In this document: piece after piece, positions 1,345 to 47,608 of the stretch
Position numbering within the stretch: position 1 is the first letter of the stretch
How the letters are laid out: each line of letters begins with the position of its first letter
Notes under the pieces: model-generated
What the model saw: only the letters and a program-made list of their open reading frames with translations
Told to the model about the DNA's origin: nothing
Database searches by the model: none
Assembly (NCBI GenBank): GCA_023666335.1
Contig: JAMPCE010000012.1
Span: forward strand, 1-64,000
Reading direction: 5' to 3'
Length of the DNA: 64,000 nucleotides
DNA from: a bacterium
GTDB lineage: Bacteria > Bacillota > Clostridia > Lachnospirales > Lachnospiraceae
Position numbers and translations under genes: made by a program

Positions 1345-2583
1345 ATGAGAAAGTTTACGGATTATTTTTTTGCACAACTGAAACGTGTATGCCGTCTCCT
1401 GCCTTTGCAGATGGGGACAAGTCTCGTGATCTGCGCCTGCGTGGGTATGCTGGCTTTTTTGCTTGTAGCGCAGAGAGCGGAGGAAGGGCAGGAACGGTAT
1501 CGCATCGGTCTGGTGGGAGATGTTTCCGGCTCCTATCTGGGTTTCGGGATCGCCGCTTTGCAGACTGTGGACGATTCGCGGCTGATGATCGAGCTGGTTG
1601 AATTGTCGGAGACAGAGGCGGAGGACGCGCTTTCCCGTGGCGAACTGACAGCCGTGGTGCGGGTGCCGGACGATTTTCTGGATTCCGTTGTGTACGGAAG
1701 AAATGACACACATGTCACATATTTGGCGCCGCCGGACCAGACACAGCTTGGTTACGCGGTGATGGGGGAAGTCGCGGATGTGGCTTCCACGCTGGTGACG
1801 GCGTCCCAGAGCGCCATTTACGCGATGCAGCGCATCCTCTATGAACAGGAGGGTTCTGAGCGGATCGGCGAAGAGACGGACCGCCTGAACCTGATGCTGA
1901 TCAATCTGGTGCTTTCCCGCAGCGGCTTTGAAGAGGTCGAGGTACTGGGGTATGCCGAGGGGTTGAGTCTGGAGGCTTATTATTTCTGCAGGCTTCTTCT
2001 GCTCGTTCTGCTTCTTGCGGGTCTGTCCGGAAGCATCTTCTTTCTTTACAGAAAGGCGGCGTTGTCCGCGATGCTGAAAGCCGGGGGCGTCGGGGCGCTT
2101 TCACAGATTGCGGGGGAGTATCTTGCCTATCTGGGTCTGCTGTGCGCGGGCTTCATTCTTCCCTCCTGTGTTCTGGTATTTGCGCTTGCGCACAGGATGC
2201 TTTCGCTGCCGGAATGGAAAGGCGCAGGAGCAGAACCGTTTTTTGTGCTGCTTCCCGCTTTTTTTGCGGCGGCTGCCATGTTTGCGGCTCTCCAGCTTTT
2301 TCTTTATGAATTGGCGGACGGGATCGTGAACGGGCTCATGCTGCAGCTGCTTTGCGGCGTGGGGATGGCATACTTTTCCGGCTATTTCTATCCGGCGGCT
2401 TTTCTTCCGGAGCAGATGGGAACAGTCGGCAGCCTCTTTCCCACAGGCGCGGCGGCGCGCCTTGTGGAGGATACTTTCCTTGGAAAGAGCGTGAGTGCGT
2501 CCGGCGCGGCGGTTCTTCTGTGGCTTATGGCATTCCTGCTGCTTGCCGCATTCGTCCGACGCTGCCGAATCCGTCGCACTTAA
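1345..2583 (+). CDS. ABC-2 type transporter permease
   Basis: A 412-residue membrane protein with the ABC-2 (CcmB/YhgE-like) layout: an N-terminal membrane helix (about residues 24-42), a long extracytoplasmic domain of about 170 residues, then five or six hydrophobic segments (for example LLLVLLLAGLSGSIFFLY and FVLLPAFFAAAAMFAALQL). It starts directly after the ATPase stop and is followed by a related permease, so the pair probably forms a heterodimeric channel. The sequence contains one copy of the TGACA-N4-TGTCA palindrome (1704-1717). The exported substrate cannot be deduced. Confidence 0.85.
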   Translation: MRKFTDYFFAQLKRVCRLLPLQMGTSLVICACVGMLAFLLVAQRAEEGQERYRIGLVGDVSGSYLGFGIAALQTVDDSRLMIELVELSETEAEDALSRGELTAVVRVPDDFLDSVVYGRNDTHVTYLAPPDQTQLGYAVMGEVADVASTLVTASQSAIYAMQRILYEQEGSERIGEETDRLNLMLINLVLSRSGFEEVEVLGYAEGLSLEAYYFCRLLLLVLLLAGLSGSIFFLYRKAALSAMLKAGGVGALSQIAGEYLAYLGLLCAGFILPSCVLVFALAHRMLSLPEWKGAGAEPFFVLLPAFFAAAAMFAALQLFLYELADGIVNGLMLQLLCGVGMAYFSGYFYPAAFLPEQMGTVGSLFPTGAAARLVEDTFLGKSVSASGAAVLLWLMAFLLLAAFVRRCRIRRT

Positions 2584-2612
2584 CCGAAACCATTTATCAC
2601 AAGGAGACAGAA

Positions 2613-3758
2613 ATGCGCGTACAGATCCGCAGATTTTTGATCAGAGCATGGCTCACGCAAAAAAGGCTGCTCACCCACGGCAGCTTTCTTTTGCTGCTCG
2701 TTCTCCCCCTGCTGTTCTCCGTCGGGCTGAACAGACTTTCCCAAGAGGAGAGCGGGCTTGCGACCATCGCCCTGTATCTGCCGGAAGAAGATCTGCTTGC
2801 GGAACAAGTCGGGGAGCGGCTGTTTGGCAGAGAGAGCGCTTTCCGTTTTCTTTCCTGCGCGGATGAAGAGGAGGCGGTCATGCTTGTGGAGGCGGGGGAG
2901 GCGGACGCAGCATGGATCTTTTCCGGCGGGACGGAAGAGAGACTTCGGGAACTTGCGGGGAAGCGCCGTGTACGGCCGCTCGTAAAGGTGGTGGAAAGAC
3001 GTGACAGCGTGCCGCTGATCCTTGCAAGGGAAGTGTTGTCGGCGGCTGTCTATCCCGCTTTTTCCTATGCAGTCTATGAAAGCTATGTCACGCGGGAACT
3101 CGGGCTTACCGAATTGGAGGAAGAGACGCTGCGCCGCACCTATGAGGACGTGGCGGTGGCGGGCAGTCTGTTTCAGAGAGTCTATCCCGACGGAACAACA
3201 GAAAAAACAGCGGGCGATACCGACTATGTGCTGGCGCCGCTTCGGGGGATCCTTGCGATCTGGCTCACCTTTCTGGGAATCGCCGCGGCTCTGCTGTTTA
3301 TACAGGATGAGGAGCGGGGCGTTTACGGACGACTGCCCGCCGGCAGGCGTTCTTTGGCGTTCTACGGCACAGGCGCTGTGTTCCTTTTGGACGGGACGGT
3401 TGTTTTGTTTTTGTGTAGTCAGTTTGGCGGCGCGTTTACGGATTGGAAACGGGAAGCGGTGTGCGCGGCGGTCTTTGCCTGCTGTGTGTTGGCATTTTCC
3501 AACTTTTTGCGGCTTTTGTGCAGGAAGCCGCACCGGCTCGGCGTCATTCTCCTGCCATTGGGGGCGGCGATGTTTGCGCTCTGCCCCGTTTTCGTGAATC
3601 TGCAAAATTTCAGGGCGGTAAAGCTGCTGCTCCCGCCCCGATATTATCTGCTCTCTATTCATAACACATGTTATTTATATGAAATGGCTGTATATACGGT
3701 GATTTTGATTTTTGTCGGCGCTGTTTTGCAGCGGTTGACTCAATCGACCTCGATCTGA
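2613..3758 (+). CDS. ABC-2 type transporter permease, second subunit
   Basis: A 381-residue permease with the same architecture as its upstream neighbour: an N-terminal helix ([16 protein letters not shown]), a large outer domain and C-terminal hydrophobic segments. The frame is open further upstream, but the ATG at 2613 follows AAGGAGACAGAA, an ideal ribosome binding site, and lies 30 bases after the preceding stop. It completes a three-gene exporter operon. Its last 19 bases overlap the 3' end of the convergent oxidoreductase gene, leaving no room for a separate terminator. Confidence 0.85.
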
Positions 3759-5428: not shown

Positions 5429-5432
5429 GCGT

Positions 5433-7074: not shown

Positions 7075-7124
7075 GATATTGTTTGAAACCGCAAGCTGCG
7101 GAGAAAAATTTATGGAGGAGTGTC

Positions 7125-8336
7125 ATGACCGCGATCGTAAGCCTGCTGTTCTGGCTTGTGGCTGTACCGTTTGCTATCGGCTTGATTCCTGCAAATTTCA
7201 TACCGCCTGTAAGGCGCAATCCCGGATTCGTGCTGCTTGCGGGATATTTTGTCATGTGGGCGCTTTTTGCGCTGGCGGCGATTCCTGCGGTCTTATGGGT
7301 GGAGTATGACAATTTTAAGGTCGCTTCCGCTGTTTTTGCGGGTTTGGCGCTGTCAGGCGCCGCCGTGGGGATCTGTCTGCTGTATCGGAACGGAAAGGCG
7401 GGGGAGCCGGGGCTGGTTTTCGGGCGTCGGAAAGAGGAACGCCTGTGGCAAAAAAATGACACGCATGTCATAAAGGGGGCGGGGATCCGGGGACTGCTGA
7501 AAAGTTTCCTGCGGGCGGAATATATCGAATGGCTTGCTTTCTTTTTCCTGCTGGGATTCCAGCTTTACAAGGCGGCGGCTTTCGCTTCCTTTGACGGGGA
7601 CGACGCCTATTATGTGGTGGAGTCTCTGCTTGCGCAGGAAGCGGATGTGATGTACCGTATCCTTCCGCTCACGGGCGGTTCCACGGGGCTTGACGTGCGC
7701 CACGCGCTGGCGGTCTTTCCCATGTGGGTGGCTTTCGTGGCGGTGCGGTCAGGGATTCATGCCACCATCGTTTCCCATGTGGTGATGCCGTTTGTGCTGA
7801 TTCCGCTGACCTATCTGTTATATTATGAGATCGGCTGTCGGCTGTTCGGCCGCGTTTCGGCGGGCGGCGAAAGATCCGGCGGTGCGGAGGATGCGCGCGA
7901 GACCAGCGGGAGTGTGCTGTGTCGGGAGAATCTGCCCGTCTTCATGATTTTGCTGGCGCTGTTCCAGATTTTCGGCAACGTCTCCATCTACACGACGGAG
8001 ACCTTTTTCCTGACCCGTACCTGGCAGGGCAAGGCGGCAGCGGGGGCGCTCGTGATCCCTGCCGTGCTATGGCTGTTTCTTCTGCTTGACGGCGGGGAAA
8101 CAGAAAGAGGACAGAAGAAAGGGCTCTGGCTTCTCTTTGTCTGTGTGCAGATGACGGCGGGCATCTGTAGTTCCATCGCGGTGTTTCTGGTCTCGATCCT
8201 GACGGCGGTTACGGCGTTTGTGCTGGCCTGTATGCGGCGGGATCTGCGGCTCTTATTGAAATTCGGCGCCGCCTGCATCCCCAACGTGATCTACATGGCG
8301 ATTTATGTGGTGATTGGGTATAGTTATTTATTATAA
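7125..8336 (+). CDS. DUF6077-type polytopic membrane protein
   Basis: A 403-residue protein with about nine or ten hydrophobic segments. It carries the acidic motif DGDDAYYVVES after the fourth segment, as in membrane proteins of the DUF6077 group in Clostridia; acidic motifs in the first outer loop resemble those of lipid-linked-sugar-dependent GT-C glycosyltransferases, so a GT-C-like role is possible but unproven. The frame is open 14 codons upstream, but ATG 7125 follows GGAGG at good distance. One TGACA-N4-TGTCA copy lies at 7457-7470. It is followed by a second membrane-protein gene and an acylation pair, suggesting a surface-glycan modification operon. Confidence 0.7.
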   Translation: MTAIVSLLFWLVAVPFAIGLIPANFIPPVRRNPGFVLLAGYFVMWALFALAAIPAVLWVEYDNFKVASAVFAGLALSGAAVGICLLYRNGKAGEPGLVFGRRKEERLWQKNDTHVIKGAGIRGLLKSFLRAEYIEWLAFFFLLGFQLYKAAAFASFDGDDAYYVVESLLAQEADVMYRILPLTGGSTGLDVRHALAVFPMWVAFVAVRSGIHATIVSHVVMPFVLIPLTYLLYYEIGCRLFGRVSAGGERSGGAEDARETSGSVLCRENLPVFMILLALFQIFGNVSIYTTETFFLTRTWQGKAAAGALVIPAVLWLFLLLDGGETERGQKKGLWLLFVCVQMTAGICSSIAVFLVSILTAVTAFVLACMRRDLRLLLKFGAACIPNVIYMAIYVVIGYSYLL

Positions 8337-9164: not shown

Positions 9165-9184
9165 GGACGATGGGAGAATAACAA

Positions 9185-10735
9185 ATGTTATTTAATTCTT
9201 ATATTTTCATATTTGTCTTTTTACCCATATGCCTGCTCGGCTTTTACGGTCTTCTGCACAGCGGAAAGCCGGGGGCAGCCAGAGTGTTTCTGACGGCGAT
9301 GTCCTTGTGGTTCTATGGCTATTTTAACCGGAACTATCTGCTGATCATGGTGTGCAGCATCGCCGTAAATTTTTTGTTCCACAGACTGTTGTCCCGGGAG
9401 GATCTGTGGCGCAGGGCGGTTCTGATTCTGGCAGTCGGTTTTAATCTGGGGCTGCTGTTCTATTTCAAGTATTTTGATTTCTTTCTCACGATCGCAAACG
9501 GGCTATTCGGGACGGAATTTGTCCTGCGGGGCATTCTGCTGCCGCTGGGGATCAGTTTCTTTACGTTTCAGCAGATTTCCTTTCTCGTGGATACTTACCG
9601 GGGCGAGGTGAAAGACTGTCCGTTTACGGAGTATGCGCTGTTCGTCTCCTTTTTTCCGCAGCTCATCGCAGGCCCCATCGTAAACCACAGCGAGATGCTG
9701 CCGCAGTTTCGCGCGTTTGGCGAAAAAAAGGCGGATTGGGAACAGATCGCGGGCGGCGTCCTGCTGTTTGTGCTGGGACTTGCGAAGAAAGTGCTTTTGG
9801 CGGACACGTTCGGCGCGGGGGCGGATTTCGGCTATGCGGATCCGGCGGCGCTCGGGCGGGCGGACGCGGCGCTGGTCATCCTCTTTTATGCGCTGCAGCT
9901 CTACTTTGATTTCAGCGGCTACTGCGATATGGCGCGGGGGCTGGGAAAGATGTTCGGCATCGAGATTCCCGTCAATTTCGATTCCCCGTACAAGGCGGTG
10001 AACATCGTAGATTTCTGGAAACGGTGGCATATCACTCTGAACCGTTTTTTTACAAAATACGTCTACATTCCTCTGGGCGGGAACCGCAGGGGGCGGGCGC
10101 GGATGTACTGTAATCTCCTGCTCGTCTTTTTCTTAAGCGGTCTCTGGCACGGAGCGGGCTGGAATTTTATCGTCTGGGGGATGCTGCACGGCGTATTGTA
10201 TGTGGCGACTCGCTTCCTGCAAAGTCGGGGAAGACAAAAAAGTGACACAGATGTCAAAAATGACAAAGGTGTCGGAAAAGACAGCGCAAAAGCCCCGGAC
10301 GCATCGGGTGACGTGACAGGATTCGGCAGTAGGATCGGCAAGGCAGTCTCGCAGATCCTGACTTTCCTCTATGTCAGCGTGGCATGGGTCTACTTCCGCG
10401 CGGCGGATATCGCGCAGGCAAACGCCATCCTCCGCACAGCCCTTGCGGGGAAAGTGCAGAAAATCTCCGACGGACTGGCGGAGTGTTTCCGTGTGGACGA
10501 GTTCTGGTATGCCCTGAAAGTATTGCATTTGGACAATTTTTCGTTCAGCCGTTCCATTTTGATGTGGGCGATCCTGATAGCCGGACTCTATTTGGCGATG
10601 GTCGGGCGAAACGCCGCCGAGCGCGCATCACGGGTCAGATTCGGTCCGGTGTCGGCGGCGGCGTGCGTGATTCTCGCGGTATGGTGCATCCTCAGTCTTT
10701 CCGGGGTCAGCACCTTCCTGTACTTCAATTTCTGA
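9185..10735 (+). CDS. MBOAT family O-acyltransferase (AlgI/DltB-like)
   Basis: A 516-residue membrane-bound O-acyltransferase that would transfer acyl groups across the membrane onto a surface glycan. The start MLFNSYIFIFVFLP is characteristic of the family. Also seen are the conserved loop VDFWKRWHITLNRFF, the IPLGGNRRG stretch and the catalytic-histidine motif GLWHGAGWNFIVWG. A hydrophilic insert (about residues 345-380) carries one exact and one near copy of the TGACA-N4-TGTCA palindrome (10243-10274). It is followed 31 bases later by an SGNH partner gene, the usual AlgI-AlgJ or DltB-DltD pairing. Confidence 0.9.
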   Translation: MLFNSYIFIFVFLPICLLGFYGLLHSGKPGAARVFLTAMSLWFYGYFNRNYLLIMVCSIAVNFLFHRLLSREDLWRRAVLILAVGFNLGLLFYFKYFDFFLTIANGLFGTEFVLRGILLPLGISFFTFQQISFLVDTYRGEVKDCPFTEYALFVSFFPQLIAGPIVNHSEMLPQFRAFGEKKADWEQIAGGVLLFVLGLAKKVLLADTFGAGADFGYADPAALGRADAALVILFYALQLYFDFSGYCDMARGLGKMFGIEIPVNFDSPYKAVNIVDFWKRWHITLNRFFTKYVYIPLGGNRRGRARMYCNLLLVFFLSGLWHGAGWNFIVWGMLHGVLYVATRFLQSRGRQKSDTDVKNDKGVGKDSAKAPDASGDVTGFGSRIGKAVSQILTFLYVSVAWVYFRAADIAQANAILRTALAGKVQKISDGLAECFRVDEFWYALKVLHLDNFSFSRSILMWAILIAGLYLAMVGRNAAERASRVRFGPVSAAACVILAVWCILSLSGVSTFLYFNF

Positions 10736-12808: not shown

Positions 12809-13846
12809 TTACTCCGCCGCCCCTGACAGTTCCGGGAACATACACTCCGTAAACCGTCTTGCCAGCAGTTCCCGCCCCGCATCGTTGAAGTGGATATAGT
12901 CCGTCATATAATCCAGATAATTATCCTCATTCACAGAGCCGTAGAAGTTGTCGATAAAGGAGACGCCGACGTCCAGAGTGGCGTCCAGTTCCTTTTGCAG
13001 ATAGTGGCTGATCGTGCCGTGGCCTAAGTCCGCGCGGTCGCCGTTCTGGAAATTGCCGTCCTCACCGATGCTGTGGCAGAAAGTGTGGGACATTACCACG
13101 ATGCGGATATGGGGATAAGCCTCCTGGATCGCCGTCACGCCTGCGCGCAGCGCGCCGGTGTAGGTGACGATGTCGTAGGGGGCGTTGGGATCGTCACAGG
13201 GCCGCCTGTTGATGTAATCGCTCGCGTCATACATGACGCAGATCATATCCACGGTATTTAAGTCCAGTTCCGAGAGCATCTGTGTGTTTGCGGCAAAGCT
13301 CTCGTCGTAGCTGTAAGTGGCAGCCGTCTTCATCAGATCGAAATTTCCCTCGGCAAGGCTTTTTGCCACATAGGAAAAGGAGAAAGCGTCCAGGATGTAG
13401 CCGTCATTGTAGGAGGCAAACTGCGCCGCCATTGTGGTTCCCGTAAAGGAGCCGTTATAGACGACTGCGCCCGTCTTTTCTGCGATCTGCTCCGACAGGC
13501 CGCCCTCGCCCCGGTCTAAGGAAAAAGGATCGTCGCCCAGACAGAGAATGGTGGTGACTCCGTCGTCCACCCAGCCCTCCCGCTTGTCCGGCGCCAGGGG
13601 GATGAGGTTGTCCAGAACTTCGACATCAAAGTCTGCCGTCTGTTCATCCGGATCGGGAACGATGGGCGTTCCCTTGTTCCATCTGTAGAGGCGGAAAGCG
13701 GAAAAGCCCACGACCAGCACGATGGCGGCGAGCAGGATGAGATGGACGCTCACATGGATGCGGCGCTTCTCCCGCTTCGCGGGAATATCTGACACTTCTG
13801 TCATATTTTCTGTTTCCGGTTGCTTCTTTTCCTGAAATTCTTTCAT
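12809..13846 (-). CDS. Membrane-anchored SGNH/GDSL-like protein lacking the usual nucleophile
   Basis: A 345-residue protein: a charged cytoplasmic tail, one membrane helix (about residues 34-52, LILLAAIVLVVGFSAFRLY), then an SGNH-type outer domain. The block I position reads LCLGDDPFSLDR, so the usual GDS serine is Asp; GSFTGTTM and the late DYIHFNDAGRE (Asp-His) are kept. It may use another serine or be non-catalytic. The start at 13846 has AGGAACT upstream. It converges with the radical SAM gene, leaving 4 bases between stops, and carries one palindrome copy at 13790-13803. A role in O-acylation of the local glycan is inferred from context. Confidence 0.7.
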   Translation of the reverse strand: MKEFQEKKQPETENMTEVSDIPAKREKRRIHVSVHLILLAAIVLVVGFSAFRLYRWNKGTPIVPDPDEQTADFDVEVLDNLIPLAPDKREGWVDDGVTTILCLGDDPFSLDRGEGGLSEQIAEKTGAVVYNGSFTGTTMAAQFASYNDGYILDAFSFSYVAKSLAEGNFDLMKTAATYSYDESFAANTQMLSELDLNTVDMICVMYDASDYINRRPCDDPNAPYDIVTYTGALRAGVTAIQEAYPHIRIVVMSHTFCHSIGEDGNFQNGDRADLGHGTISHYLQKELDATLDVGVSFIDNFYGSVNEDNYLDYMTDYIHFNDAGRELLARRFTECMFPELSGAAE

Positions 13847-14551: not shown

Positions 14552-14651
14552 GTTACAAAATTGTTACAAATACCGAGGTTTACATAAAAGAAAAAGGACA
14601 TCGGCGGCTCTACGGGAAGACCGGAAGATCCACGGACAGGGAGAAAACGAA

Positions 14652-17408
14652 ATGCAGAATAAGAATAATGCAAAAAACCATACAAAAGAACGCGGCGGAT
14701 CGGCGGATTTTGAGGAGCTGCTCGCAGACGATCGTTTTGATGATGAAGATGACGACAGTGTGACCGAAGACACGCTGGAATTTTTGAGTCTGGACGACGA
14801 GGCGATCGAGACCTGGCAGAAGACGCATGCTCCGGAAAAGAAAGCGGTTTCGACGGGAAAAGCGCCTGGCCGTGTCGTGGAAGTGTTTGAGGATGAGGAC
14901 GACGAGGACTATGAGGACGAAGATTACGAAGATGAGGATTACGAAGACGAAGAAGATGATGACGAAGATTATGAAGATGAGGATTACGAAGACGAAGAAG
15001 ATGATGACGGGGATTATGAGGAATATGACGATGACGACGGATTTGCAGCCCGCCTGAGATACTTTATCAGTGAGATGAACGGTCTGGATGTGGCGGTGGC
15101 TGTTCTGGGGATCATCGTGCTCGTAGGCGTGTTTGCGACAGGCGGGATCTATCTGCACGCCAGATCCACGCAGAAGCAGGTGGAGGCGTTCGCGAACGTC
15201 GGTGAGGAACTTGCGGGCGTTTCCGTGATCGGGGAGAGCGGTCTGATCGCCGTGACGGAATCCGCAAGGCTCGGCAATATGATCGATGTGGAAGAACCGG
15301 AGGAGGAGACGCCGGAGGCTTCCTATGTGGAGGCGGACGGCGAGGTGGAAGTGGAGCTGCATCTGACCTCTATTCTTTCCGATATGAAGATCAAGCTGGT
15401 GAACAGCGGGACGGGGAAACTGATCGGCGGCGTGCCCTTTGAGGTGGAAGTCTCCGGGACAAAGAGTTTTCAGTTAAAGGACGAAGACAAGGACGGCGTG
15501 ATCTACCAGACAGGCATTGATGCGGGGACTTACGAGGTAAAGCTGCTTCCTTTTCCGGCGGATGTGGCGGATAAATATAAACTTCCCGCAAAGAGCAGCA
15601 GCGTGAAAGTCACGGATCAGATCGCCTATCAGAAAGTGGATGTGGCGGATGAAGTAAAATCCGAATCGGAAGTCAACGTCGCAAAAGAGGAAGCCACACA
15701 GCAGAACACGGTAGAGGAGTCGGCTCTGGCGGATACCGTAGAGTGGGTGGAGTCTACCAAGACCCCCATCGGCGACGGGGAAATCTCCTATGAGGAAGTG
15801 TCGAAAGATCAGATACCGGATCCGTGGAAGACCGGCGCGGGCGCGTTCCGAAAGATGGTCGAGGACGGGGAGGAGGACGATCCTTACGAGAGGGCGACGT
15901 CATCTTTGAACCAGAGCAGCCTGACACTGGACAAGGGCGGCAGCGGGACCTTGAAGATATCTGTGAGCGAAGACGTCAGCTATTCGGTGGAGTGGAGCGT
16001 TTCTGACACGAGTGTCATTACGGTGAGCGACGGCACGGTGACGGCGGTTGCGCCCGGTACGGCAACAGTCACGGCACGCGTGGTGATCGGCAGCAAGGTG
16101 CAGGAGCATACCTGTACGGTGACAGTCAAGGGGGATGACGGCGCAGGCGGCGGCGACAAAGATAAGGAAGATCAGGACAAAGATAAAGATAAGGATCAGG
16201 ACAAAGACAAAGATAAGGATCAGGACAAAGACAAAGATAAAGAACAGGACAAAGACAAGGATAACGGTCAGAGCGAGACTGTCTATCAGAAGATCACGAT
16301 AAGCGGCGAGAGCGAGGTGTCGGTGGGAAAGACCGTGACCCTGACTGCACGGACGGAGCCGGAGGGCGGCAAGATCACCTGGGAGAGCGAGAATGCAAAG
16401 ATTGCAAAAGTGGACGAAAACGGCGTTGTGACAGGCGTGTCGGAAGGCAGCGTAAAGATTCTTGCCCGCTGTAAGGGAAAAGAGGAGATCACGGAGCCCT
16501 TTGAGATCAAAGTCGTGAAAGCGGCAGTCACCGTGGACGGCAAGGCGAAACTGAAAGATAAGGACGGCAACCAGTTATACTACAAAGATGGAGATGGAAC
16601 ATACAAAGAGGCGACTTATCAGGATTATAAAGAGCGGGACAAATTCTTCAAACAGGTGAAGACCGCTTCCGCATACCGCTATACCGGATGGCAGACCATA
16701 GACGGGCACCTCTATTACTATGATAAGAACGGCAATTATGTGACCGGAGATCAGGTCATCCAGGGCGCGCGGTACACTTTCGGCAGCGACGGAAAACTGC
16801 AGAAGAGTTCCGGCACGATGGGGATCGACGTGTCCAAGCACAACGGAAATATCGACTGGAACGCGGTGAAAAATTCCGGCGTCTCCTACGTCATCATCCG
16901 CTGCGGTTACCGCGGTTACTCCACGGGCGTGCTGGTGGAGGATCCGAAGTTTCACAGCAACATCAAAGGCGCGAAAGCGGCGGGTCTCAAGGTGGGCGCT
17001 TACTTTTTCAGTCAGGCGGTCAACGAGGTGGAGGCTGTGGAGGAAGCTTCTATGGCGATCGACCTAGTCAAGGGCTACGGTCTGAACTATCCGCTCTTTC
17101 TGGATGTGGAGGGCAGCGGCGGCAGGGCGGACGGCATCAGCCGCGATATGCGGACTGCAGTTTGCAATACCTTCTGTCAGACGGTGCAGAATTCGGGCAT
17201 TTCGGCGGGGGTTTATGCGAATAAGACATGGTTTACCGAGAAGATCAACACGGCGAGCCTCACAAACTATAAATTGTGGCTGGCGCAGTATGCCAGCGAG
17301 CCGACCTACACGGCTACCCGCTATGACCTGTGGCAGTATTCCTCCAAGGGCAGGGTCAGCGGCATCGGTACCAATGTGGACATGAATATAAGTTATGTAA
17401 ACTACTAA
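14652..17408 (+). CDS. Membrane-anchored GH25 muramidase with acidic tail and Ig-like domains
   Basis: A 918-residue protein. From the N-terminus: a cytoplasmic tail with a very acidic run (DYEDED units, about residues 78-130), one membrane helix (VAVAVLGIIVLVGVFATGGIY), a beta-rich domain containing DKDGVIY, a BIG2-like Ig domain, a DKDKDKDQ linker, a second BIG2-like domain, a short YYYDKNGNYVTG repeat and a C-terminal GH25 domain. The GH25 active site is present: D726 in GIDVSKHNG and D818/E820 in FLDVEG. It should cleave the MurNAc-GlcNAc bond outside the membrane. ATG 14652 has AGGGAG upstream; the longer frame includes the promoter. A role in wall remodelling during glycan attachment is inferred. 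Confidence 0.85.
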   Translation: MQNKNNAKNHTKERGGSADFEELLADDRFDDEDDDSVTEDTLEFLSLDDEAIETWQKTHAPEKKAVSTGKAPGRVVEVFEDEDDEDYEDEDYEDEDYEDEEDDDEDYEDEDYEDEEDDDGDYEEYDDDDGFAARLRYFISEMNGLDVAVAVLGIIVLVGVFATGGIYLHARSTQKQVEAFANVGEELAGVSVIGESGLIAVTESARLGNMIDVEEPEEETPEASYVEADGEVEVELHLTSILSDMKIKLVNSGTGKLIGGVPFEVEVSGTKSFQLKDEDKDGVIYQTGIDAGTYEVKLLPFPADVADKYKLPAKSSSVKVTDQIAYQKVDVADEVKSESEVNVAKEEATQQNTVEESALADTVEWVESTKTPIGDGEISYEEVSKDQIPDPWKTGAGAFRKMVEDGEEDDPYERATSSLNQSSLTLDKGGSGTLKISVSEDVSYSVEWSVSDTSVITVSDGTVTAVAPGTATVTARVVIGSKVQEHTCTVTVKGDDGAGGGDKDKEDQDKDKDKDQDKDKDKDQDKDKDKEQDKDKDNGQSETVYQKITISGESEVSVGKTVTLTARTEPEGGKITWESENAKIAKVDENGVVTGVSEGSVKILARCKGKEEITEPFEIKVVKAAVTVDGKAKLKDKDGNQLYYKDGDGTYKEATYQDYKERDKFFKQVKTASAYRYTGWQTIDGHLYYYDKNGNYVTGDQVIQGARYTFGSDGKLQKSSGTMGIDVSKHNGNIDWNAVKNSGVSYVIIRCGYRGYSTGVLVEDPKFHSNIKGAKAAGLKVGAYFFSQAVNEVEAVEEASMAIDLVKGYGLNYPLFLDVEGSGGRADGISRDMRTAVCNTFCQTVQNSGISAGVYANKTWFTEKINTASLTNYKLWLAQYASEPTYTATRYDLWQYSSKGRVSGIGTNVDMNISYVNY
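14931..15008 (+). repeat. 45-bp direct repeat in the acidic tail
   Basis: A 33-base sequence at 14931-14963 recurs exactly at 14976-15008, inside a longer run of GAT/GAC/GAA/GAG codons. Near-identity at DNA level suggests recent slippage or recombination. Confidence 0.8.
16155..16271 (+). repeat. 24-bp tandem repeat encoding a DKDKDKDQ linker
   Basis: One 21-base unit and four 24-base units with a few substitutions encode alternating Asp-Lys with Gln. The repeat forms the flexible linker between the two Ig-like domains of the GH25 protein and could vary in copy number. Confidence 0.85.
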
Positions 17409-19518: not shown

Positions 19519-20863
19519 ACGGATGAAACGCGTGCTCATCGCTATGATCGCCGTGTTTCTGGCGGTGATCGCGGTGCTCGCGCTCGCAAATCTTGACGCG
19601 GTGAAACGAAAGCTCGGACTTGCGCAGGCAGCGCCGATACAGGAAGAGCCTGAGGAGAATCCCGGGATGGAAGAGGAGGAGAGTGGACAGATCGGCAGCA
19701 ATCTGTCTGCTTTTCTGAGCGATGAGACCTTTTTTGATCCGGAAGTAAAGTTTAAGAGCCTCGAATCCTATTCCGGCAGGAACGTGTCGCTCGTCATGAG
19801 TTCCGTAGCGAAAGATCTGCGCATCATGGTGGTGGACAGCGTCGGCAGGCTGGTGACGGGCACGGAATTTACGGTCACGATCCAGAATGTGGGCGAGTAC
19901 ACCGACCGCGACAAGGACGGCGTGATCTATGTGGACGATCTGCGCTCCGGAGAGTACAGCGTGTCCCTCAATGAGCAGGACGGATTTCGCGTGCCGAACA
20001 CCATCACGACCATCCAGGTGCGGCAGGATATCGAGTATCGCGTGCTGGAGAATATCGAATACCTCATGCTGACAGAGGACGACATCGATCCCGAGAAAGA
20101 GGATAAGGCGGTAAACGGCGCGGCTGAGGATGCGGACGGCACGGAAAACATGGAATTGCAGTTTGACAACGGCAGCGCGAAACTCGGCATTGACGTGTCC
20201 AAATGGAATCAGGAGATTGACTGGGCAGCCGTGAAAGAAGCGGGCGTCGAGTTTGCCATCATCCGCTGCGGGTATCGCGGCGCATCGACAGGGGCGCTCG
20301 TCATTGACCCCCGGTACAAAGAGAATATCGAGGGCGCGATCGAGGCGGGCATCCCCGTCGGCGTTTACTTCTTCACGCAGGCGCGCGACGAGGTGGAGGC
20401 TGTGGAGGAGGCGTCTATGGTGATTCGGCTGATCGAGGATTACGATGTGGATTATCCGGTGTTTCTGGACAGCGAGAGCGCAGGCGGCAAGGGCAGGGCG
20501 GACGGATTGGACAGCGACGAGCGGACGCGGGCGCACAGGGCTTTCTTGCAGACCATTCAGGCGGCGGGTTACGAGACGGGCGTTTATGCTTCCCGCAACT
20601 GGCTGAAAGACAGAATAGATATGACACGCCTGTCAGATTATCGGATCTGGCTGGCGGAGTATGCGGATGTACCGACCTATGACGAATATTATTATCACAT
20701 GTGGCAGTATACCTCCAAGGGTACGGTGGACGGCATTTCCACGAACGTGGACTTAAACCTCTGCTATATGAATATCGATACCTCGATCAACCATTCCAAA
20801 CACGCGGCGGGGTATTCCGGCGTGGTGAATGGGGATACGGGGAATGTACCGACTACTGAGTAA
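19508..20863 (+). CDS. Membrane-anchored GH25 muramidase, shorter paralogue
   Basis: A 451-residue protein: an N-terminal helix (about residues 6-25), a beta-rich domain (residues about 70-190) containing [18 protein letters not shown], similar to the domain in the larger GH25 protein at 14.6 kb, and a C-terminal GH25 domain. Catalytic positions are GIDVSKWN and FLDSESAG, so the D-x-E pair is retained. The start overlaps rfbA by 11 bases. The paralogue pair flanks rfbBA, suggesting duplication within a wall-glycan operon. One palindrome copy lies at 20622-20635. Confidence 0.85.
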
Positions 20864-20880: not shown

Positions 20881-21441
20881 ATGGGTAAGATAACAGTGGA
20901 AACATGTGCGATCGAGGGTTTGAAAGTAATCACCCCGACTGTATATGGAGATAACAGGGGTTATTTTATGGAGACGTATCACTATGAGGACTATAAGGCG
21001 GCGGGGATCGATCAGGTCTTTGTGCAGGATAACCAGTCCGCTTCCGTGGGCGGCGTCCTGCGGGGGCTGCATTTTCAGATACAGTATCCGCAGGATAAGC
21101 TGGTGCGGGTGATCGCGGGCGAAGTGTTTGACGTGGCGGTCGATCTGCGGAAAGGTTCCGCGACCTATGGCAAGTGGTATGGCGTGACGCTTTCTGCGGA
21201 AAATAAGAAACAGTTCTTTATTCCGAAGAACTTTGCACACGGATTTCTGGTGCTCTCGGATCATGCGGAATTTACTTACAAATGTACGGATTTTTATCAT
21301 CCGAACGACGAGGGGGGCATTCTTTACAGCGACCCCGAGATCGGTATCGAATGGCCGATTCCCGAGGGGATGGAGCTTGTGATGTCCGATAAGGACAAAA
21401 AATGGGAGGGACTCTCCGCGTTCACGAAAAAGTACCGTTAG
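20881..21441 (+). CDS. rfbC: dTDP-4-dehydrorhamnose 3,5-epimerase
   Basis: A 186-residue cupin enzyme, the third step of dTDP-rhamnose synthesis. The catalytic histidine is in LRGLHFQ (H64), followed by QDKLVRVIAGEVFDVAVD and KNFAHGFLVLSD, all typical. Length is normal. It starts 17 bases after the GH25 gene, behind AAAGGAG. The expected fourth gene, rfbD, does not follow: the next gene is the ABC permease. Confidence 0.95.
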   Translation: MGKITVETCAIEGLKVITPTVYGDNRGYFMETYHYEDYKAAGIDQVFVQDNQSASVGGVLRGLHFQIQYPQDKLVRVIAGEVFDVAVDLRKGSATYGKWYGVTLSAENKKQFFIPKNFAHGFLVLSDHAEFTYKCTDFYHPNDEGGILYSDPEIGIEWPIPEGMELVMSDKDKKWEGLSAFTKKYR

Positions 21442-24780: not shown

Positions 24781-26883
24781 ATGACAGAAAATCAAATAGA
24801 AACAATCGGCAAAATCAAACTGGATCTCACCCACTATCCGGGCGAGGATCTGTACTGCGACGGCGAGATCGAAGACGAACTTCTGGCGATCGCGAGAGAC
24901 TGCGCGGCGGTGGAGTATCAGCGCATCATCGAGGAGCGAAAAAGCTGGGAGATTCTGTACCATCTCTCCCCCTTGCGGGAAAATATCGTGGAGTGGCTCC
25001 CGATCAACCGCGCGATGAAAGTGCTGGAGGTCGGCTCGGGCTGCGGGGCGATCACGGGGGCGCTCTCGAAAAAGGCGGGTGAGGTGACTTGCGTGGAACT
25101 TTCCAAAAAGCGCAGTCAGATCAATGCCTACCGTCATATGGATGCGGACAACGTGACGATCCATGTGGGAAACTTTCAGGACGTGGAACCGGATCTTCCC
25201 TGCGATTATGACTACATCTGCCTGATCGGCGTCTTTGAGTACGCGAGAGGCTATATTGGTTCAGAGAAGCCTTACGAGGACTTTCTGACCATCATCAAAA
25301 AGCATCTGAAACCGGGCGGGCATATCGCCATTGCCATTGAAAATAAATTTGGATTAAAATATTGGGCGGGGTGCAGAGAGGATCATCTGGGCGTCTATTT
25401 TGCGGGGATCGAGGACTATCCCGAGGGCGGCGTGGTCAGGACATTCACGCGGGACACGCTCCTTGCCATCGCGAAGCGCTGCGGCTTTTCGGAGATGCAG
25501 ATGTATTACCCGTACCCGGATTACAAGTTTATGACGACCCTCTATTCCGACAGACGGCTTCCGAAGAGGGGGGAACTATCCGATAACATGCGTAATTTTG
25601 ATCGGGACAGGCTGCAGCTCTTTGATGAAAAACGGGTGTTTGACAGCGTGATCGGAGAAGGGCAGTTCCCTCTTTTCTCCAATTCCTATCTGCTTCTTCT
25701 GGGGGCGCCTTTGTCGGAAGAATATGTGAAGTATTCCAACGACAGGAAAGAAGCGTTTCAGATCAAGACCGTACAGCGAAGCACAGGATTTGGACCCGTT
25801 ATTGAGAAACACCCGTTATCCAAAGAAGCCGAAAAGCACATCGAAGACACGGTTAAGGCTTATGAAAAGCTGGCTGGACGCTATCGGGGAAGTCTCCTGG
25901 CAGTCAATGAGGCGAAGCTGGAAAAAACTGCGGACGGATCAAATTATATTAAGATTAAATTTTTGAAAGGAAAAACGCTGGAGGAGATCCTCGACGAGCG
26001 ATTGGAAAAACAGGATGTGGAGGGGTTCCAAAACCTCTTTGACGAGTATGTCAAACGGATCTCTGCGGGCGAGGAGCAGGAGATCGCAGATTACGACATG
26101 ATCTTCGCAAATATCATGATCGAGCAGGATGATAACGGGTGTTATAAATTAGATAACACATGGAATTTAATAGACTGTGAATGGACGTTTGAGCGGGTGG
26201 TCGAAACGAAAGAGATCGCGTTCCGCGCAATTTACTGCTATCTGCTGGAAGACGAAAAAAGGAATAGATTAAATCTTGATTTAATAATGAACAAGCTGGG
26301 AATCGGGCAGGCGGAGGCGGAACAGTACCGCAGGCAGGAGATGAAATTCCAAAAATATGTGACGGGGAAACGGCTTTCCACGGCGGAGTTGAGAGAAGCG
26401 ATCGGGAAAAAAATCTATCCGCTCTCGGACATCTGCGAGGGATTAAGAGATCGTTCCGGCAGTGACAGGATCCAGATCTATGAGGACACGGGAAGCGGAT
26501 TTCGGGAAGAGCAGTCTTTCTTTCCGGAGGAGGACGGCGAGCAGCTTGTGAGAAATGCCGAGGGTCTGGTGGAGCTTTCCGTAAAGATCGGGAGAGGACG
26601 GAGCGCTCTGCGGATCGATCCGGGGGGAAACCCCTGCCTGGTCTGGCTGAAACGGATCGCATGGAACGGGGAAGCGGTCGCCCTGAAAGGAAAGCATTTG
26701 CAGGTGAACGGCTTTCGGATCGGGGAGGATGTCTACGCGTTTCCGACGGAGGACCCGAATATCACACTGTCGCTCTGGGGACTTTCGGGTGAGGAAGAAA
26801 ATCGGCTGGAGATGGTCATGGAAGTGACGAAAATGCCAATGGAAACGATCAAACATTTGCAGAAAAGGGGATTGTTTGGCTGA
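24781..26883 (+). CDS. SAM methyltransferase with kinase-like domain (WbdD-like capping enzyme candidate)
   Basis: A 700-residue protein. Residues about 55-210 are a class I methyltransferase: motif I VLEVGSGCGAITGAL and the acidic post-I position CVELSKKRS. Residues about 325-495 look like an APH/LPS-kinase-type fold: candidate K343 in PVIEKHPL with E349/E351 in the next helix, hinge FLKGKTLEEIL, catalytic loop D439-x4-N444 (YDMIFANIMI) and metal Asp D465 in NLIDCEW. The last 200 residues are beta-rich and unassigned. Methyltransferase plus kinase is the WbdD layout, which caps O-antigen chains recognised by Wzt. It follows a Wzt with a C-terminal domain. The methyltransferase is clear; the kinase call is by eye. 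Confidence 0.7.
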   Translation: MTENQIETIGKIKLDLTHYPGEDLYCDGEIEDELLAIARDCAAVEYQRIIEERKSWEILYHLSPLRENIVEWLPINRAMKVLEVGSGCGAITGALSKKAGEVTCVELSKKRSQINAYRHMDADNVTIHVGNFQDVEPDLPCDYDYICLIGVFEYARGYIGSEKPYEDFLTIIKKHLKPGGHIAIAIENKFGLKYWAGCREDHLGVYFAGIEDYPEGGVVRTFTRDTLLAIAKRCGFSEMQMYYPYPDYKFMTTLYSDRRLPKRGELSDNMRNFDRDRLQLFDEKRVFDSVIGEGQFPLFSNSYLLLLGAPLSEEYVKYSNDRKEAFQIKTVQRSTGFGPVIEKHPLSKEAEKHIEDTVKAYEKLAGRYRGSLLAVNEAKLEKTADGSNYIKIKFLKGKTLEEILDERLEKQDVEGFQNLFDEYVKRISAGEEQEIADYDMIFANIMIEQDDNGCYKLDNTWNLIDCEWTFERVVETKEIAFRAIYCYLLEDEKRNRLNLDLIMNKLGIGQAEAEQYRRQEMKFQKYVTGKRLSTAELREAIGKKIYPLSDICEGLRDRSGSDRIQIYEDTGSGFREEQSFFPEEDGEQLVRNAEGLVELSVKIGRGRSALRIDPGGNPCLVWLKRIAWNGEAVALKGKHLQVNGFRIGEDVYAFPTEDPNITLSLWGLSGEEENRLEMVMEVTKMPMETIKHLQKRGLFG

Positions 26884-37038: not shown

Positions 37039-38072
37039 TGGAGAAAAAGCTGCGGCTGAGTGCAAAGGGAAGCGTCAGATTGGTCGCGGTATTTGCCGTG
37101 ATCTTGTGGCTGTGGAATTTTTTCAGGAGTTATCTGCTCTTTTTAATGATGCTTCTTTTAATAACAGGCGTTATAATATCTGCGGCAGTTATGATGTCGG
37201 CGCGGGACAGCATACAGGTAACGGTCGTGCTGCCTTATCATCGGGTAGGGAAGAAAACGGATATTCCATGCGATATCCGTTTTTTGAATCTCCGGCGTTT
37301 TGTCGGGTTTTCGATCGACGCGACCTATCGGTACGGAAATCTTTTTACGGGGGATATGGAAGAAAAAAAGGAGAAACTGTGGGCTGCGCCCCGCGAAGGC
37401 GGAACGCTTTCGTTTCTGCTAAACAGCCGCTATGCGGGGCGGCTTAAGGTCAGTGTGGAGACCTGTCAGATATATGATCCGCTGCACCTGTTCTGTCTGA
37501 CCTGTCGGGAGGCGGGAAGTGCGGAAGTGTTGGCATGGCATGTCTTTTCGGACGGGGAGGACGCCGAAGAACTCTATGCGTGTATTGAAGGCTTTCCCGA
37601 AGAAGACATGAGCAGGAGGCGGGGGACGGAGTATGATCCCGACTATGAGATCCGGGAGTATGCCGCTGGGGACGAATTAAAGAGCATCCACTGGAAACTG
37701 TCGGCAAAACAGGGGAAGACGATGGTGCGGGAGCGCCTTGCGGCAGGAAAGGAAAGGATCAACGTGCTGCTGCCTCTGGGAAGCGAGAGGGACGAAAATG
37801 ACGCGCTGATGGAGTCCGTGTACAGGCTGTGCAGGGCGCTGCTTTCCAAAGGATATCCGATCAGGTTGTTTCGGCAGGACGCGGAGGGCGGACTTTGCAG
37901 TTACTTGATCATGGAAACGGGGGAACTGGAGAACGCGCTGGGAGAGATTCTGAGCACGAGCGGGATCCGCGCTTTCTCTTTCATCGAGGAACAGATGGCA
38001 ATCGAGCATCCCGCAGAGCGGTATGTGTTGGTAAAGACGGGGGCGTATCAGGGTGCATACGTTATTTCGTAG
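37038..38072 (+). CDS. DUF58 domain membrane protein
   Basis: A 344-residue protein with two N-terminal membrane helices (about residues 13-50) and a soluble C-terminal DUF58 domain marked by YDPDYEIREYAAGDELKSI and HWKLSAKQGKTMVRE. DUF58 has a von Willebrand A-like fold and works with MoxR ATPases. The start at 37038 overlaps the MoxR stop. The gene end overlaps the next start by 20 bases, so the three genes form a tight operon. Confidence 0.9.
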   Translation: MEKKLRLSAKGSVRLVAVFAVILWLWNFFRSYLLFLMMLLLITGVIISAAVMMSARDSIQVTVVLPYHRVGKKTDIPCDIRFLNLRRFVGFSIDATYRYGNLFTGDMEEKKEKLWAAPREGGTLSFLLNSRYAGRLKVSVETCQIYDPLHLFCLTCREAGSAEVLAWHVFSDGEDAEELYACIEGFPEEDMSRRRGTEYDPDYEIREYAAGDELKSIHWKLSAKQGKTMVRERLAAGKERINVLLPLGSERDENDALMESVYRLCRALLSKGYPIRLFRQDAEGGLCSYLIMETGELENALGEILSTSGIRAFSFIEEQMAIEHPAERYVLVKTGAYQGAYVIS

Positions 38073-43971: not shown

Positions 43972-45801
43972 ATGTGCGGAATCGTAGGATATATCGGAAC
44001 GAAGCAGGCGGCGCCCATCATTCTGGACGGTCTGGCGAAATTGGAGTACCGCGGATACGACTCGGCGGGCATGGCGGTCTATGACGGCAAAGAAAAGATC
44101 AATATCACGAAATCGGTGGGCAGGCTGAAAGTTTTGGAGAATATGACGCACGGCGGCGAGAATATGCCGGGTTTCTGCGGCGTCGGCCACACGCGCTGGG
44201 CGACCCACGGCGCGCCAAGCGATACGAATGCGCACCCGCATTTTAACGAGGCGGAGACGATCGCGGTGGTACATAACGGTATCATCGAAAATTACTTACA
44301 GCTTCGCAAGATGCTGACTGAGCGCGGTTATCATTTTGTGTCGGAGACGGACACGGAGGTTCTGGCGCATCTTTTGGACTACTATTATAAAGGAAATCCG
44401 CTGGAGGCTGTGACCAAGGTGCTCCACCGGGTAGAAGGTTCCTACGCGCTGGGGATCCTCTTTGCGGACTGCCCCGATCAGATCTTTGCGGCCAGAAAGG
44501 ATTCGCCCCTGATCGTGGGACAGAATGAGGAGGGATGCTTTATCGCCTCGGATGTGCCTGCGATTTTAAAATACACCCGAAAAGTCTACTATGTGGACAA
44601 TCAGGAAGTCGTGCGCCTGCGCGCGGATCATATGCACTTTTATACGGTGGACGAGGAGGAGATACAAAAAGACCCCGTCACCATCGAGTGGGATGCGAGC
44701 GCGGCGGAGAAAGCGGGCTACGAGCATTTCATGTTAAAGGAGATGTACGAGCAGCCAAAGACTGTGACTGACACGCTTTTGCCCCGCATCAAGGACAATG
44801 ATATCGTGATCGAAGAACTCGGTATGGACGACGAAGCGATGCGGGCGGTGAAAAAGATTCATATCGTGGCGTGCGGTTCGGCGTACCATGCGGGCGTCAC
44901 GGGAAAGTATGTGATCGAGGGTCTTGCCCGGATCCCCGTGGAGGTGGATCTGGCTTCCGAGTTCCGCTATCGCGATCCCATTTTGGAGGAAGGCGCCATG
45001 GTGGTGGTGATCAGTCAGTCCGGTGAGACGGCGGATACGCTGGCGGCGCTGCGGGAATCGAAGGCGAGAGGGTTCAAGGTCCTCGGCATCGTCAACGTCG
45101 TGGGAAGTTCGATCGCCAGAGAGGCGGACAATGTGATGTACACATGGGCGGGACCGGAGATCGCGGTGGCGACGACCAAGGCATACACGGCGCAGTTGAT
45201 CGCGCTCTATCTGCTTGCCATCAAGTTTGGCAGAGTGCGGGGCGAGATCGACGATATGACATTCGTGTCACTTTTGGGCGATCTGCGCTGCCTCCCCGAT
45301 CAGATCGAGCTTCTCTTAAATAATAAGAACAAGATCCAGAGATTCGCCAACCGTTACATCGGCGCAAAGGATGTCTTCTTCATTGGCAGGGGCATCGACT
45401 ACGCGATCTCGTTAGAGGGGTCCCTCAAATTAAAGGAGATCTCCTATATCCATTCCGAAGCCTATGCGGCGGGTGAACTCAAGCACGGCACCATCTCCCT
45501 GATCGAGGAGGGAACGCTTGTGGCGGCGGTGTCCACCCAGCCCGCGCTCTATGCGAAGACCATCAGCAATATGGTGGAAGTCAAGGCAAGAGGCGCCTTT
45601 GTGCTGGCGGTGACCTGTGAGGAGAATAAAGAGATCGAGAAGGCGGCGGATTATGTGATCTATATTCCGGAAACGAACCCTTATTTTGCCAATTCGCTTG
45701 CCATCATTCCCTTGCAGTTGTTCGGCTACTATGTTTCGGTCGGAAAAGGCTGCGATGTGGATAAGCCGAGAAATCTGGCAAAATCCGTGACGGTCGAATA
45801 A
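43972..45801 (+). CDS. glmS: Glutamine-fructose-6-phosphate aminotransferase (isomerizing)
   Basis: A 609-residue enzyme making glucosamine-6-phosphate for peptidoglycan and other glycans. The N-terminal MCGIVGYIG exposes the catalytic Cys of the glutaminase domain, with THGAPSDTNAHPH following. Two SIS domains hold ACGSAYHAG and SQSGETADTLAAL, and the C-terminus DKPRNLAKSVTVE is the family ending. Length is normal. No glmS ribozyme was recognised upstream: only 21 bases separate it from the preceding gene. One palindrome copy lies at 45257-45270. Confidence 0.96.
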   Translation: MCGIVGYIGTKQAAPIILDGLAKLEYRGYDSAGMAVYDGKEKINITKSVGRLKVLENMTHGGENMPGFCGVGHTRWATHGAPSDTNAHPHFNEAETIAVVHNGIIENYLQLRKMLTERGYHFVSETDTEVLAHLLDYYYKGNPLEAVTKVLHRVEGSYALGILFADCPDQIFAARKDSPLIVGQNEEGCFIASDVPAILKYTRKVYYVDNQEVVRLRADHMHFYTVDEEEIQKDPVTIEWDASAAEKAGYEHFMLKEMYEQPKTVTDTLLPRIKDNDIVIEELGMDDEAMRAVKKIHIVACGSAYHAGVTGKYVIEGLARIPVEVDLASEFRYRDPILEEGAMVVVISQSGETADTLAALRESKARGFKVLGIVNVVGSSIAREADNVMYTWAGPEIAVATTKAYTAQLIALYLLAIKFGRVRGEIDDMTFVSLLGDLRCLPDQIELLLNNKNKIQRFANRYIGAKDVFFIGRGIDYAISLEGSLKLKEISYIHSEAYAAGELKHGTISLIEEGTLVAAVSTQPALYAKTISNMVEVKARGAFVLAVTCEENKEIEKAADYVIYIPETNPYFANSLAIIPLQLFGYYVSVGKGCDVDKPRNLAKSVTVE

Positions 45802-45946
45802 AAAACACAATTTCTATAAAAAATGAACACAAAATAGACACAATTCGCCGCTATACTGAGTGCATGATCAGGAAACAGAGATGGCGTAAAGATGTCTGCC
45901 TGTATAGCTTTGTATCATTGCACAGTATGAAAGGAGCGAATGAATC

Positions 45947-47608
45947 ATGTACGACAACAATAACTATCCAAACGATTATACGAATCATACGGGTTCCGGA
46001 GCAAATGATCCGCAGATCGGCTCGGAGTCTGTTCAGGGCGGGAATGCTTACAGTCCCTATCAGAATACGCAGAGTACAGGACAGAGCTATACCAGCCGGG
46101 GTACGGAACAGAGCGCATACGGCGCACAGAGCAGTTATGGCAGCCGGAATGCCGAGCAGAACAGCTACGGCAGTCTGAGCGGTTATGACAGCCGCGGCGC
46201 CGAGCAGAGAAGCTACAGCAGTTATAACAGCCGGAGCGCGGCGCAGGGAAGCAGCGCGGGGACATACCACTACGGAAATGTGTATCCGAACAGCTACGCG
46301 CAGACCGTACAGAAGCCGGAGAAGAAGAAAAAAGCAAAAACAGGCGGCGGTTATTTTAAGAAAGCGCTCGCTGCGGTGTCGCTGGGACTGTTCTTCGGCG
46401 TTTTTGCGGGGCTGGGGCTTTATGCGGTAGATTACGCGACAGGGATACTCGGCGGTAAGGACGAAAAAGCGGCGGAAGCCGAAGCGCCCACGGAGAGCAA
46501 AGATTCCGCGGCGGCTGCATTATTGGACGAGGAGACGACAAAACAGCCGGTGATCGAGGGCGACCTCATCAAACAGTCGGACGCCGCAACGACGGTAGTG
46601 ACAGATGTGACCGAAGTGGTCAAGAAAGTGATGCCTTCCATCGTGGCGGTGAACAATCACTATACGGAGACCATGTCCTGGTTCGGACAGTCTATGGACA
46701 GCGAGGCGGACGCCAGCGGTTCCGGCATTATCGTCGGATTGAACGATGCGGAACTTCTGATCGTATCAAACTACCATGTGGTGGCGGACACCGATAAACT
46801 GACGGTGCAGTTCAATGAGGGCAGCGAGGCGGAGGCCTTTATCAAAGGGCAGGATTCCAAGATGGATCTGGCGGTGATCGCGGTGCCGGTGACAGAACTG
46901 TCAGATGCGACTCTGGAGGCGATCGAAGTGGCTACGCTGGGCAATTCCGACGAGCTGGAAGTCGGCGAGCCGGCGATTGCCATCGGCAACTCTCTCGGCT
47001 ACGGTCAGTCCGTTACCACGGGCGTGATCAGCGCACTCGACAGGAGCATCGACCTGTCTGCCAACGCTTACGGCGGTGACAGCGTGGAGGGCACCTTTAT
47101 CCAGACAGATGCGGCTATCAATCCAGGCAACTCCGGCGGCGCGCTCTTAAATATCAAAGGCGAAGTGATCGGCATCAATTCCAACAAGATCGGCGGCAGC
47201 GCCGTGGAGGGCATGGGCTATGCGATCCCCATTTCGGCGGCAAGCCCCATCATCGCGGAACTGATGCTGCGGGAGACCAGAAGCAAGGTCGCGGAGGAGG
47301 AACGGGGGTATCTCGGTATTTCCGGCATCAGCGTCACGCAGGAGGTCTCGCAGGCATACGGTATGCCCGAGGGCGTCTATATCGCGCAGGTCTATGAGGG
47401 CACGGCGGCAGCGGCAGCAGGCTTGAAGCAGGGCGACATCATCACGGTGTTTGGCGGCGACAAGATCGCTTCTATGGAGGAGCTGCAAAAAGAACTGGAG
47501 TTCTATGCAAAGGGCGATACCGTGGAAGTCAAGGTCATGACGATGACCGTGGCAGGGTATGAGGAGGTCACACGGCAGTTGACCTTAGGCAATAAAGTGA
47601 CGGAGTAA
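45947..47608 (+). CDS. HtrA/DegP-like serine protease with PDZ domain
   Basis: A 553-residue membrane-anchored S1C protease for envelope quality control. The first 120 residues are Tyr/Ser/Asn/Gln-rich with repeated SYGS and SRNAEQ-type pieces. Next are a basic stretch (PEKKKKAKTGG), one helix (about residues 143-165), the protease domain with H277 (SNYHVVAD), D307 (KMDLAVIAV) and S396 (PGNSGGALL), and a PDZ domain near the C-terminus. The 145-base gap upstream has no clear promoter that I can defend. One palindrome copy lies at 46890-46903. Confidence 0.93.
   Translation: MYDNNNYPNDYTNHTGSGANDPQIGSESVQGGNAYSPYQNTQSTGQSYTSRGTEQSAYGAQSSYGSRNAEQNSYGSLSGYDSRGAEQRSYSSYNSRSAAQGSSAGTYHYGNVYPNSYAQTVQKPEKKKKAKTGGGYFKKALAAVSLGLFFGVFAGLGLYAVDYATGILGGKDEKAAEAEAPTESKDSAAAALLDEETTKQPVIEGDLIKQSDAATTVVTDVTEVVKKVMPSIVAVNNHYTETMSWFGQSMDSEADASGSGIIVGLNDAELLIVSNYHVVADTDKLTVQFNEGSEAEAFIKGQDSKMDLAVIAVPVTELSDATLEAIEVATLGNSDELEVGEPAIAIGNSLGYGQSVTTGVISALDRSIDLSANAYGGDSVEGTFIQTDAAINPGNSGGALLNIKGEVIGINSNKIGGSAVEGMGYAIPISAASPIIAELMLRETRSKVAEEERGYLGISGISVTQEVSQAYGMPEGVYIAQVYEGTAAAAAGLKQGDIITVFGGDKIASMEELQKELEFYAKGDTVEVKVMTMTVAGYEEVTRQLTLGNKVTE

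Follow-up and report, generated by a model that had tools for sequence, protein, structure and literature searches.

Noc-binding sites (NBS) are 14-bp palindromes present in about 70 copies, and SlmA-binding sites (SBS) are palindromes present in 24-52 copies; both are under-represented at the replication terminus, Ter (PMC4726725). In Bacillus subtilis and Staphylococcus aureus the NBS are dispersed, with few or none at the terminus, and division is delayed when site arrays are shifted there (PMC4726725, PMC5540599). The sites of RacA (ram) in B. subtilis are also dispersed and are densest near the origin (PMC6593407). Here we consider a palindrome, TGACA-N4-TGTCA, that recurs in a stretch of 64,000 nucleotides from a member of the Lachnospiraceae (positions 1 to 64,000 of contig JAMPCE010000012.1, assembly GCA_023666335.1; hereafter the window). 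We are inclined, with modest confidence, to regard it as the putative site of a nucleoid-organising DNA-binding protein of a Noc/SlmA-like kind.

The window holds eight exact copies (Table 1), against 0.05 expected from dinucleotide shuffles, in which eight was never reached. An initial annotation of the window had listed these copies together with a near copy (10261-10274), had called them over-represented, and had placed all eight inside genes for unrelated proteins. The coordinates, the excess and the placement in open reading frames (ORFs) are confirmed. The gene context that it gave is supported by Pfam, whose matches are ABC-2 permease, DUF6077, MBOAT, a weak GDSL, two GH25, GlmS and an HtrA-type trypsin/PDZ protein. 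When spacers of 0-29 were scanned in the arm order TGACA..TGTCA, all copies fell at spacer 4 and none at any other. The densest part of the window is its first 21 kb, a cell-surface region with MBOAT, SGNH and GH25 genes that contains six of the sites.

The window is part of contig C21, one of 117 in a draft genome of 3.1 Mb (G000). With the reversed pattern of the motif as control, the whole genome has 175 sites against one control match, a frequency nowhere near expectation, and all 36 other congeners sampled are enriched too (17-157 sites; controls 0-11). Judged by GlmS, the closest relatives are nearly all metagenome-assembled genomes of Lachnospiraceae. The 297 genomes sampled from the family's other genera have a median of 5 sites (control median 3); at least 20 sites occur in 28 of them and at least 50 in 10, while a control value of 20 was met once. 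Counts range from 0 to 7 in 24 other families of the order, and the maximum in about 295 genomes of the phylum outside the family is 21. On a Spo0J tree of 29 genomes, picked for high or low site counts, the 16 motif-rich genomes form a single clade (support 98/93) with the 13 motif-poor ones outside; richness changes once on this tree, and none of 500 label shuffles gave a value as low. Among the genomes sampled in the phylum, high counts are limited to this one Lachnospiraceae clade. Separately, a family of the phylum (f42; G369, G449, G527) has a mild excess of 15-21 sites, with controls of 2-8. Twenty site loci inspected in motif-poor genomes were mostly intragenic singletons with no shared theme naming a regulator, and a literature search on the exact motif returned unrelated matches only.

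In 474 kb of G000 there are 36 sites at spacer 4 and 0-2 at each other spacer from 0 to 19. Symmetrised logos were drawn from 36 sites of G000 and from 33 and 11 sites of genomes of two other genera, G170 and G334. Since these logos agree in an extended site of about WWWATGACAC-NN-GTGTCATWWW (W being A or T), a single specificity of some 22-24 bp is common to genera that otherwise differ. In the flanks A is preferred at -1, and A/T is found at -2 and -3 (70-95%) and at -4 (70-75%). Just inside the arm C is preferred (0.46 in G000, 0.35 in G170, 0.41 in G334); the TGACAC start noticed earlier in the window is thus a genome-wide preference. The most clearly enriched single-base variant is a one-sided TGTCG (7 against 0.6 expected). 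An RNA hairpin with a 5-bp stem and a 4-base loop was rejected by reasoning: there is no loop consensus, and the strands are equal by symmetry.

About 94% of these G000 sites (34 of 36) lie inside genes, and ORFs cover about 95% of the sequence. Because the genic share matches chance placement, the sites are not operators. They occur on either strand, at any depth within the gene, and in two reading frames. The two frames had been taken as a sign that protein conservation does not explain the sites; they are there, but no other outcome was possible, as TGA would be a stop codon in the third frame. The constraint acts on the DNA sequence itself, at synonymous positions. In glmS, 50 conserved Thr/Ser positions were compared in 13 sequences from the genus or its nearest kin. 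Codon 430 alone is fixed as ACA and codon 433 alone is mostly TCA, each in 12 of the 13; in the lone exception both residues are replaced. The two codons, both of rare types, fall in the two half-sites. The palindrome is complete only in the window, with GTG (Val), and in the relative L021, with ATG (Met); most relatives have GCG (Ala). At the htrA site nine sequences of close relatives have no mismatch, four have three, and none has one or two; these counts, like those for glmS, ignore kinship among species.

The distribution of sites along the chromosome was followed in three genomes. G170 (2.8 Mb, few contigs) carries recF-dnaN-dnaA-rnpA and soj-spo0J at C7:600-615 kb and, beside the origin at 612 kb, two canonical parS. 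Its cumulative skew maximum at C6:89 kb was taken as the terminus; a dif site, sought as a terminus marker, was not recognisable near that maximum. The origin contig C7 (621 kb) carries 20 sites and the terminus contig C6 (806 kb) carries 9 (p = 0.008). No site lies in C6:1-291 kb, where 6.0 are expected in an interval partly chosen from the data, as it ends at the first site; the a priori interval of 89 kb on either side of the terminus gives p = 0.022. In G334 none of 49 sites lies on the 513-kb contig C19, which has a skew switch at 320-360 kb (8.4 expected; p = 1e-4 under uniform placement, 0.008 once sites within 5 kb are merged). The sites of this genome are strongly clustered, with 11 gaps below 1 kb against 0.8 expected. 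In G000 both gene strand and skew switch near 185 kb of the 206-kb contig C29, a tentative terminus, and this contig holds 4 sites against 11.7 expected. Summed over the three termini, there are 4 sites where 26 are expected.

The motif is not alone. In an unbiased scan of 480 kb of G000 for 5-bp dyads with spacers of 0-16, TGACA-N4-TGTCA ranks first (29, p = 4e-46). Next come TTGAC-N7-GTCAA (25), together with TGACC-N5-GGTCA (17), a form that overlaps it, and then ATAAC-N4-GTTAT (15). We call the former TTGACY-N5-RGTCAA, motif 2, and the latter ATAACR-N2-YGTTAT, motif 3 (Y, pyrimidine; R, purine). Like the first motif both are mostly genic, and their reversed controls gave 0. On C29 the seven sites of motif 3 lie at 7-54 kb; motif 2 has 2 sites up to 105 kb and 14 at 105-206 kb, around the putative terminus. 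The Fisher probability of this segregation, 6e-5, was computed with eight motif 3 sites instead of the final seven, for zone boundaries that were noticed first and tested afterwards. Motif 2, which is matS-like in layout, is also present on G000 C24. Motif 3 is also found in other Lachnospiraceae genera (L017-L095), some of them poor in motif 1, at many places that are not orthologous. Palindrome enrichments in the sets of glmS loci were disregarded, since orthologous sequence shared between the loci inflates them. Several dispersed palindromes in separate zones fit chromosome organisation and are hard to account for by modification or uptake. It is tempting to go further and to imagine a positional code of at least three palindrome families, each with its own protein and zone, that would let the cell tell the terminus apart; we consider this possible, though on the whole doubtful.

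Table 1. Positions in the window of the TGACA-N4-TGTCA copies and of motifs 2 and 3
Feature	Position	Context
Exact copy, TGACACACATGTCA	1704..1717	within ABC-2 transporter permease gene (1345-2583)
Exact copy, TGACACGCATGTCA	7457..7470	within DUF6077 gene (7083-8336)
Exact copy, TGACACAGATGTCA	10243..10256	within MBOAT gene (9185-10735)
Near copy, TGACAAAGGTGTCG	10261..10274	18 bp off site 10243..10256; one-mismatch type, itself enriched
Exact copy, TGACACTTCTGTCA	13790..13803	within GDSL/SGNH-like gene, - strand (12809-13846)
Exact copy, TGACACGAGTGTCA	16004..16017	within Big_2/GH25 gene (14523-17408)
Near copy, TGACAGGCGTGTCG, ends TGTCG	16429..16442	
Exact copy, TGACACGCCTGTCA	20622..20635	within GH25 gene (19508-20863)
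Exact copy, TGACATTCGTGTCA	45257..45270	within glmS (43972-45801); ACA/TCA codons constant, Ala -> Val completes palindrome
Exact copy, TGACAGAACTGTCA	46890..46903	within htrA-type protease gene (45947-47608); same codons kept in 8 congeners
Motif 3, ATAACR-N2-YGTTAT	3661..3674	
Motif 3	9178..9191	between called ORFs
Motif 3, ATAAC-N4-GTTAT form	20951..20964	
Motif 3	26132..26145	
Motif 3	37161..37174	
Motif 3	57688..57701	
Motif 2, TGACC-N5-GGTCA form	46608..46622	
Motif 2, TTGACY-N5-RGTCAA	53388..53404	
Motif 2, TTGACC-N5-GGTCAA	60466..60482	

Other palindromes came to light in the two further genera. TCGGT-N9-ACCGA is a weak candidate for a terminus motif in G170 (C6:56-118 kb; L250, L213, L252), 5 of 7 sampled copies lying within 62 kb at the terminus. 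In G334 there is an interspersed repeat, CTGTCCCCAAATTGCAC-N-GTGCAAATTGGGGACAG, on C22, C20, C4, C18 and others (L280, L279, L263, L277). It is often found in close arrays and has the look of a repetitive extragenic palindrome or a miniature inverted-repeat transposable element (REP/MITE). The palindromes TGCAC-N-GTGCA and TTGGG..CCCAA of G334 were set aside as one interspersed repeat, not of the motif 1 kind.

How does the motif compare with the known systems? Like the NBS it is a 14-bp palindrome with tens of dispersed copies, poor at the terminus, and both belong to Firmicutes. It differs from the NBS consensus, ATTTCCCGGGAAAT, and Noc is a ParB paralogue. Because no such paralogue was found here, the motif is Noc-like in layout yet outside the Noc family. 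With the SBS of Escherichia coli it shares dispersed palindromes under-represented at Ter, but the sequence and the phylum are different and SlmA is a TetR-type antagonist of FtsZ. The RacA site, TGACG-N4-CGTCA, has the same 14-bp geometry and the TGAC half-site; however, the fifth base is A/T in our motif where ram has G/C, and the RacA-like protein described below does not co-occur with the motif. The matS sites of MatP also have a TGAC...GTCA dyad and mark a chromosome zone by dispersed copies. They are confined to the terminus, whereas TGACA-N4-TGTCA is depleted there and its sister, motif 2, is enriched near the putative terminus instead. From parS (TGTTTCACGTGAAACA, few copies near the origin) the motif differs in sequence and spread, canonical parS being present separately. 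Transcription-factor operators lie mainly upstream of genes, unlike these intragenic sites. The initial annotation had likened the layout to chromosome-organisation sites of several types. Terminus depletion, an intragenic share that follows coding density and constraint at the level of codons favour the Noc/SlmA type among these; the terminus-enriched matS type does not hold.

Several proteins were considered as readers. A Noc-type ParB paralogue was rejected, none like Noc being found in motif-rich genomes: nearly every genome searched has one canonical Spo0J, and other ParB-type hits are weak and spread beyond the motif-rich genomes. ParB (Spo0J) itself was rejected too, as its helix-turn-helix (HTH) is alike in motif-rich and motif-poor genera. 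A RacA-like protein seemed promising because the RacA site has the same geometry. Encoded in G000 at C22:58279-58929 (L116/L121), beside rplI-dnaB, it has a MerR winged HTH, a coiled coil and a basic tail. Its HTH resembles that of RacA (5i41, E = 4e-5; segment LPIERNEMGHRSYT against LPAERNELGHYSFT), and the match to NF009648 covers residues 14 to 159 with a score below the cut-off. Relatives occur in 168 of 299 Lachnospiraceae genomes, and many motif-poor genera carry it with the same recognition helix. There is no match in motif-rich G170, G154 and G188, and other motif-rich genera have generic MerR proteins only. It was therefore rejected as the common reader: half of the motif-positive genera do not have it, and the extended site is unchanged in several motif-rich genera without it. 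In its own right it may be a Clostridial RacA/RocS-like nucleoid protein. A further observation concerns a perfect TGACACGCGTGTCA at G000 C24:15751 (L099), which is intergenic and precedes a LacI-family gene by 50 bp. This copy may be the operator of the LacI-type regulator itself, a member of the motif family by chance only.

If our preferred reading is correct, one dimeric DNA-binding protein, presumably the same in all motif-bearing genera, would bind TGACA-N4-TGTCA across the chromosome except around the terminus. In nucleoid occlusion a bound protein blocks or delays assembly of the Z ring. In the manner of Noc and SlmA, the protein would act as a marker spread over the nucleoid and keep the division machinery away from DNA that has yet to be segregated; alternatively, it might tie such DNA to the membrane. 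The marker would leave mid-cell once only the site-poor terminus remains there. A protein probably does bind these sites, with an output in division timing or nucleoid organisation. A number of points weigh against the reading as a whole. No protein that reads the motif was found among the candidates tried (ParB paralogue, ParB, RacA-like). Copy number differs tenfold within one genus, from 17 to 175. Clustering makes the terminus probabilities weaker than uniform placement implies, the site-free G170 interval was partly data-chosen, the putative terminus of G000 is based on a reversal of skew over 20 kb, and the draft contigs are unordered. The dnaA contig of G334 (79 kb) has no sites, so the pattern is no simple gradient from origin to terminus and, in this genome, does not single out the origin.

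Other suggestions can be made regarding what the sites are for. They could be centromere-like anchoring or arm-folding sites, of the RacA or condensin-loader type, without control of division. Terminus depletion and clustering would fit this too, and both the geometry of the RacA site and the RacA-like protein with its matching HTH, encoded beside dnaB, speak for it. Yet this protein is missing from three motif-rich genomes and common in motif-poor genera, TGACG-N4-CGTCA is not clearly enriched (in G170, 9 against 3), and enrichment at the origin does not appear to be general, the origin contig of G334 being empty; we consider this unlikely. A history of the genome might also mimic the pattern, if the motif were kept in old genes and the terminus were rich in recent genes of low G+C. 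Stretches on the terminus side are indeed somewhat lower in G+C, but the part of the window densest in sites holds typical accessory genes, and motif 2 is enriched in the very same terminus stretch of G000, which makes such a history improbable.

A global transcription regulator, or an intragenic roadblock, is more improbable still. Palindromes flanked by A/T are usual for regulators of this kind, and the intergenic TGACACGCGTGTCA could be an operator; against this, the intergenic share (2 of 36) is the same as that of the genome, glmS, htrA, MBOAT, GH25 and recF have no common pathway, and neither terminus depletion nor clustering would be expected. Finally, the palindrome could owe its enrichment to drive, not to a role on the chromosome, as a target of DNA modification or restriction or as a DNA-uptake sequence. 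The strong enrichment with its tenfold difference between congeneric species would agree with this, and A/T flanks are also known in some uptake sequences. However, genomes tend to avoid restriction sites and not to accumulate them, a specificity of ten bases exceeds that of known restriction enzymes, and uptake sequences are usually non-palindromic, with no reason for terminus depletion. We give this very little credence, and the modification-enzyme target proposed in the initial annotation is not supported, being at odds with the enrichment, the terminus depletion, the ten-base specificity and the A/T flanks.

We know of no nucleoid-occlusion factor in Clostridia; those described in the literature cited here are Noc and SlmA. 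The present clade of common gut bacteria is without a Noc paralogue, yet it has a site family with a terminus-poor layout like that of Noc and SlmA. The exact 14-bp site could serve directly as bait for the missing protein, and congeners that differ tenfold in copy number provide a natural experiment. Moreover, the codons suggest that a DNA-binding site can dictate the synonymous, and even the amino-acid, choice in a gene as basic as glmS.

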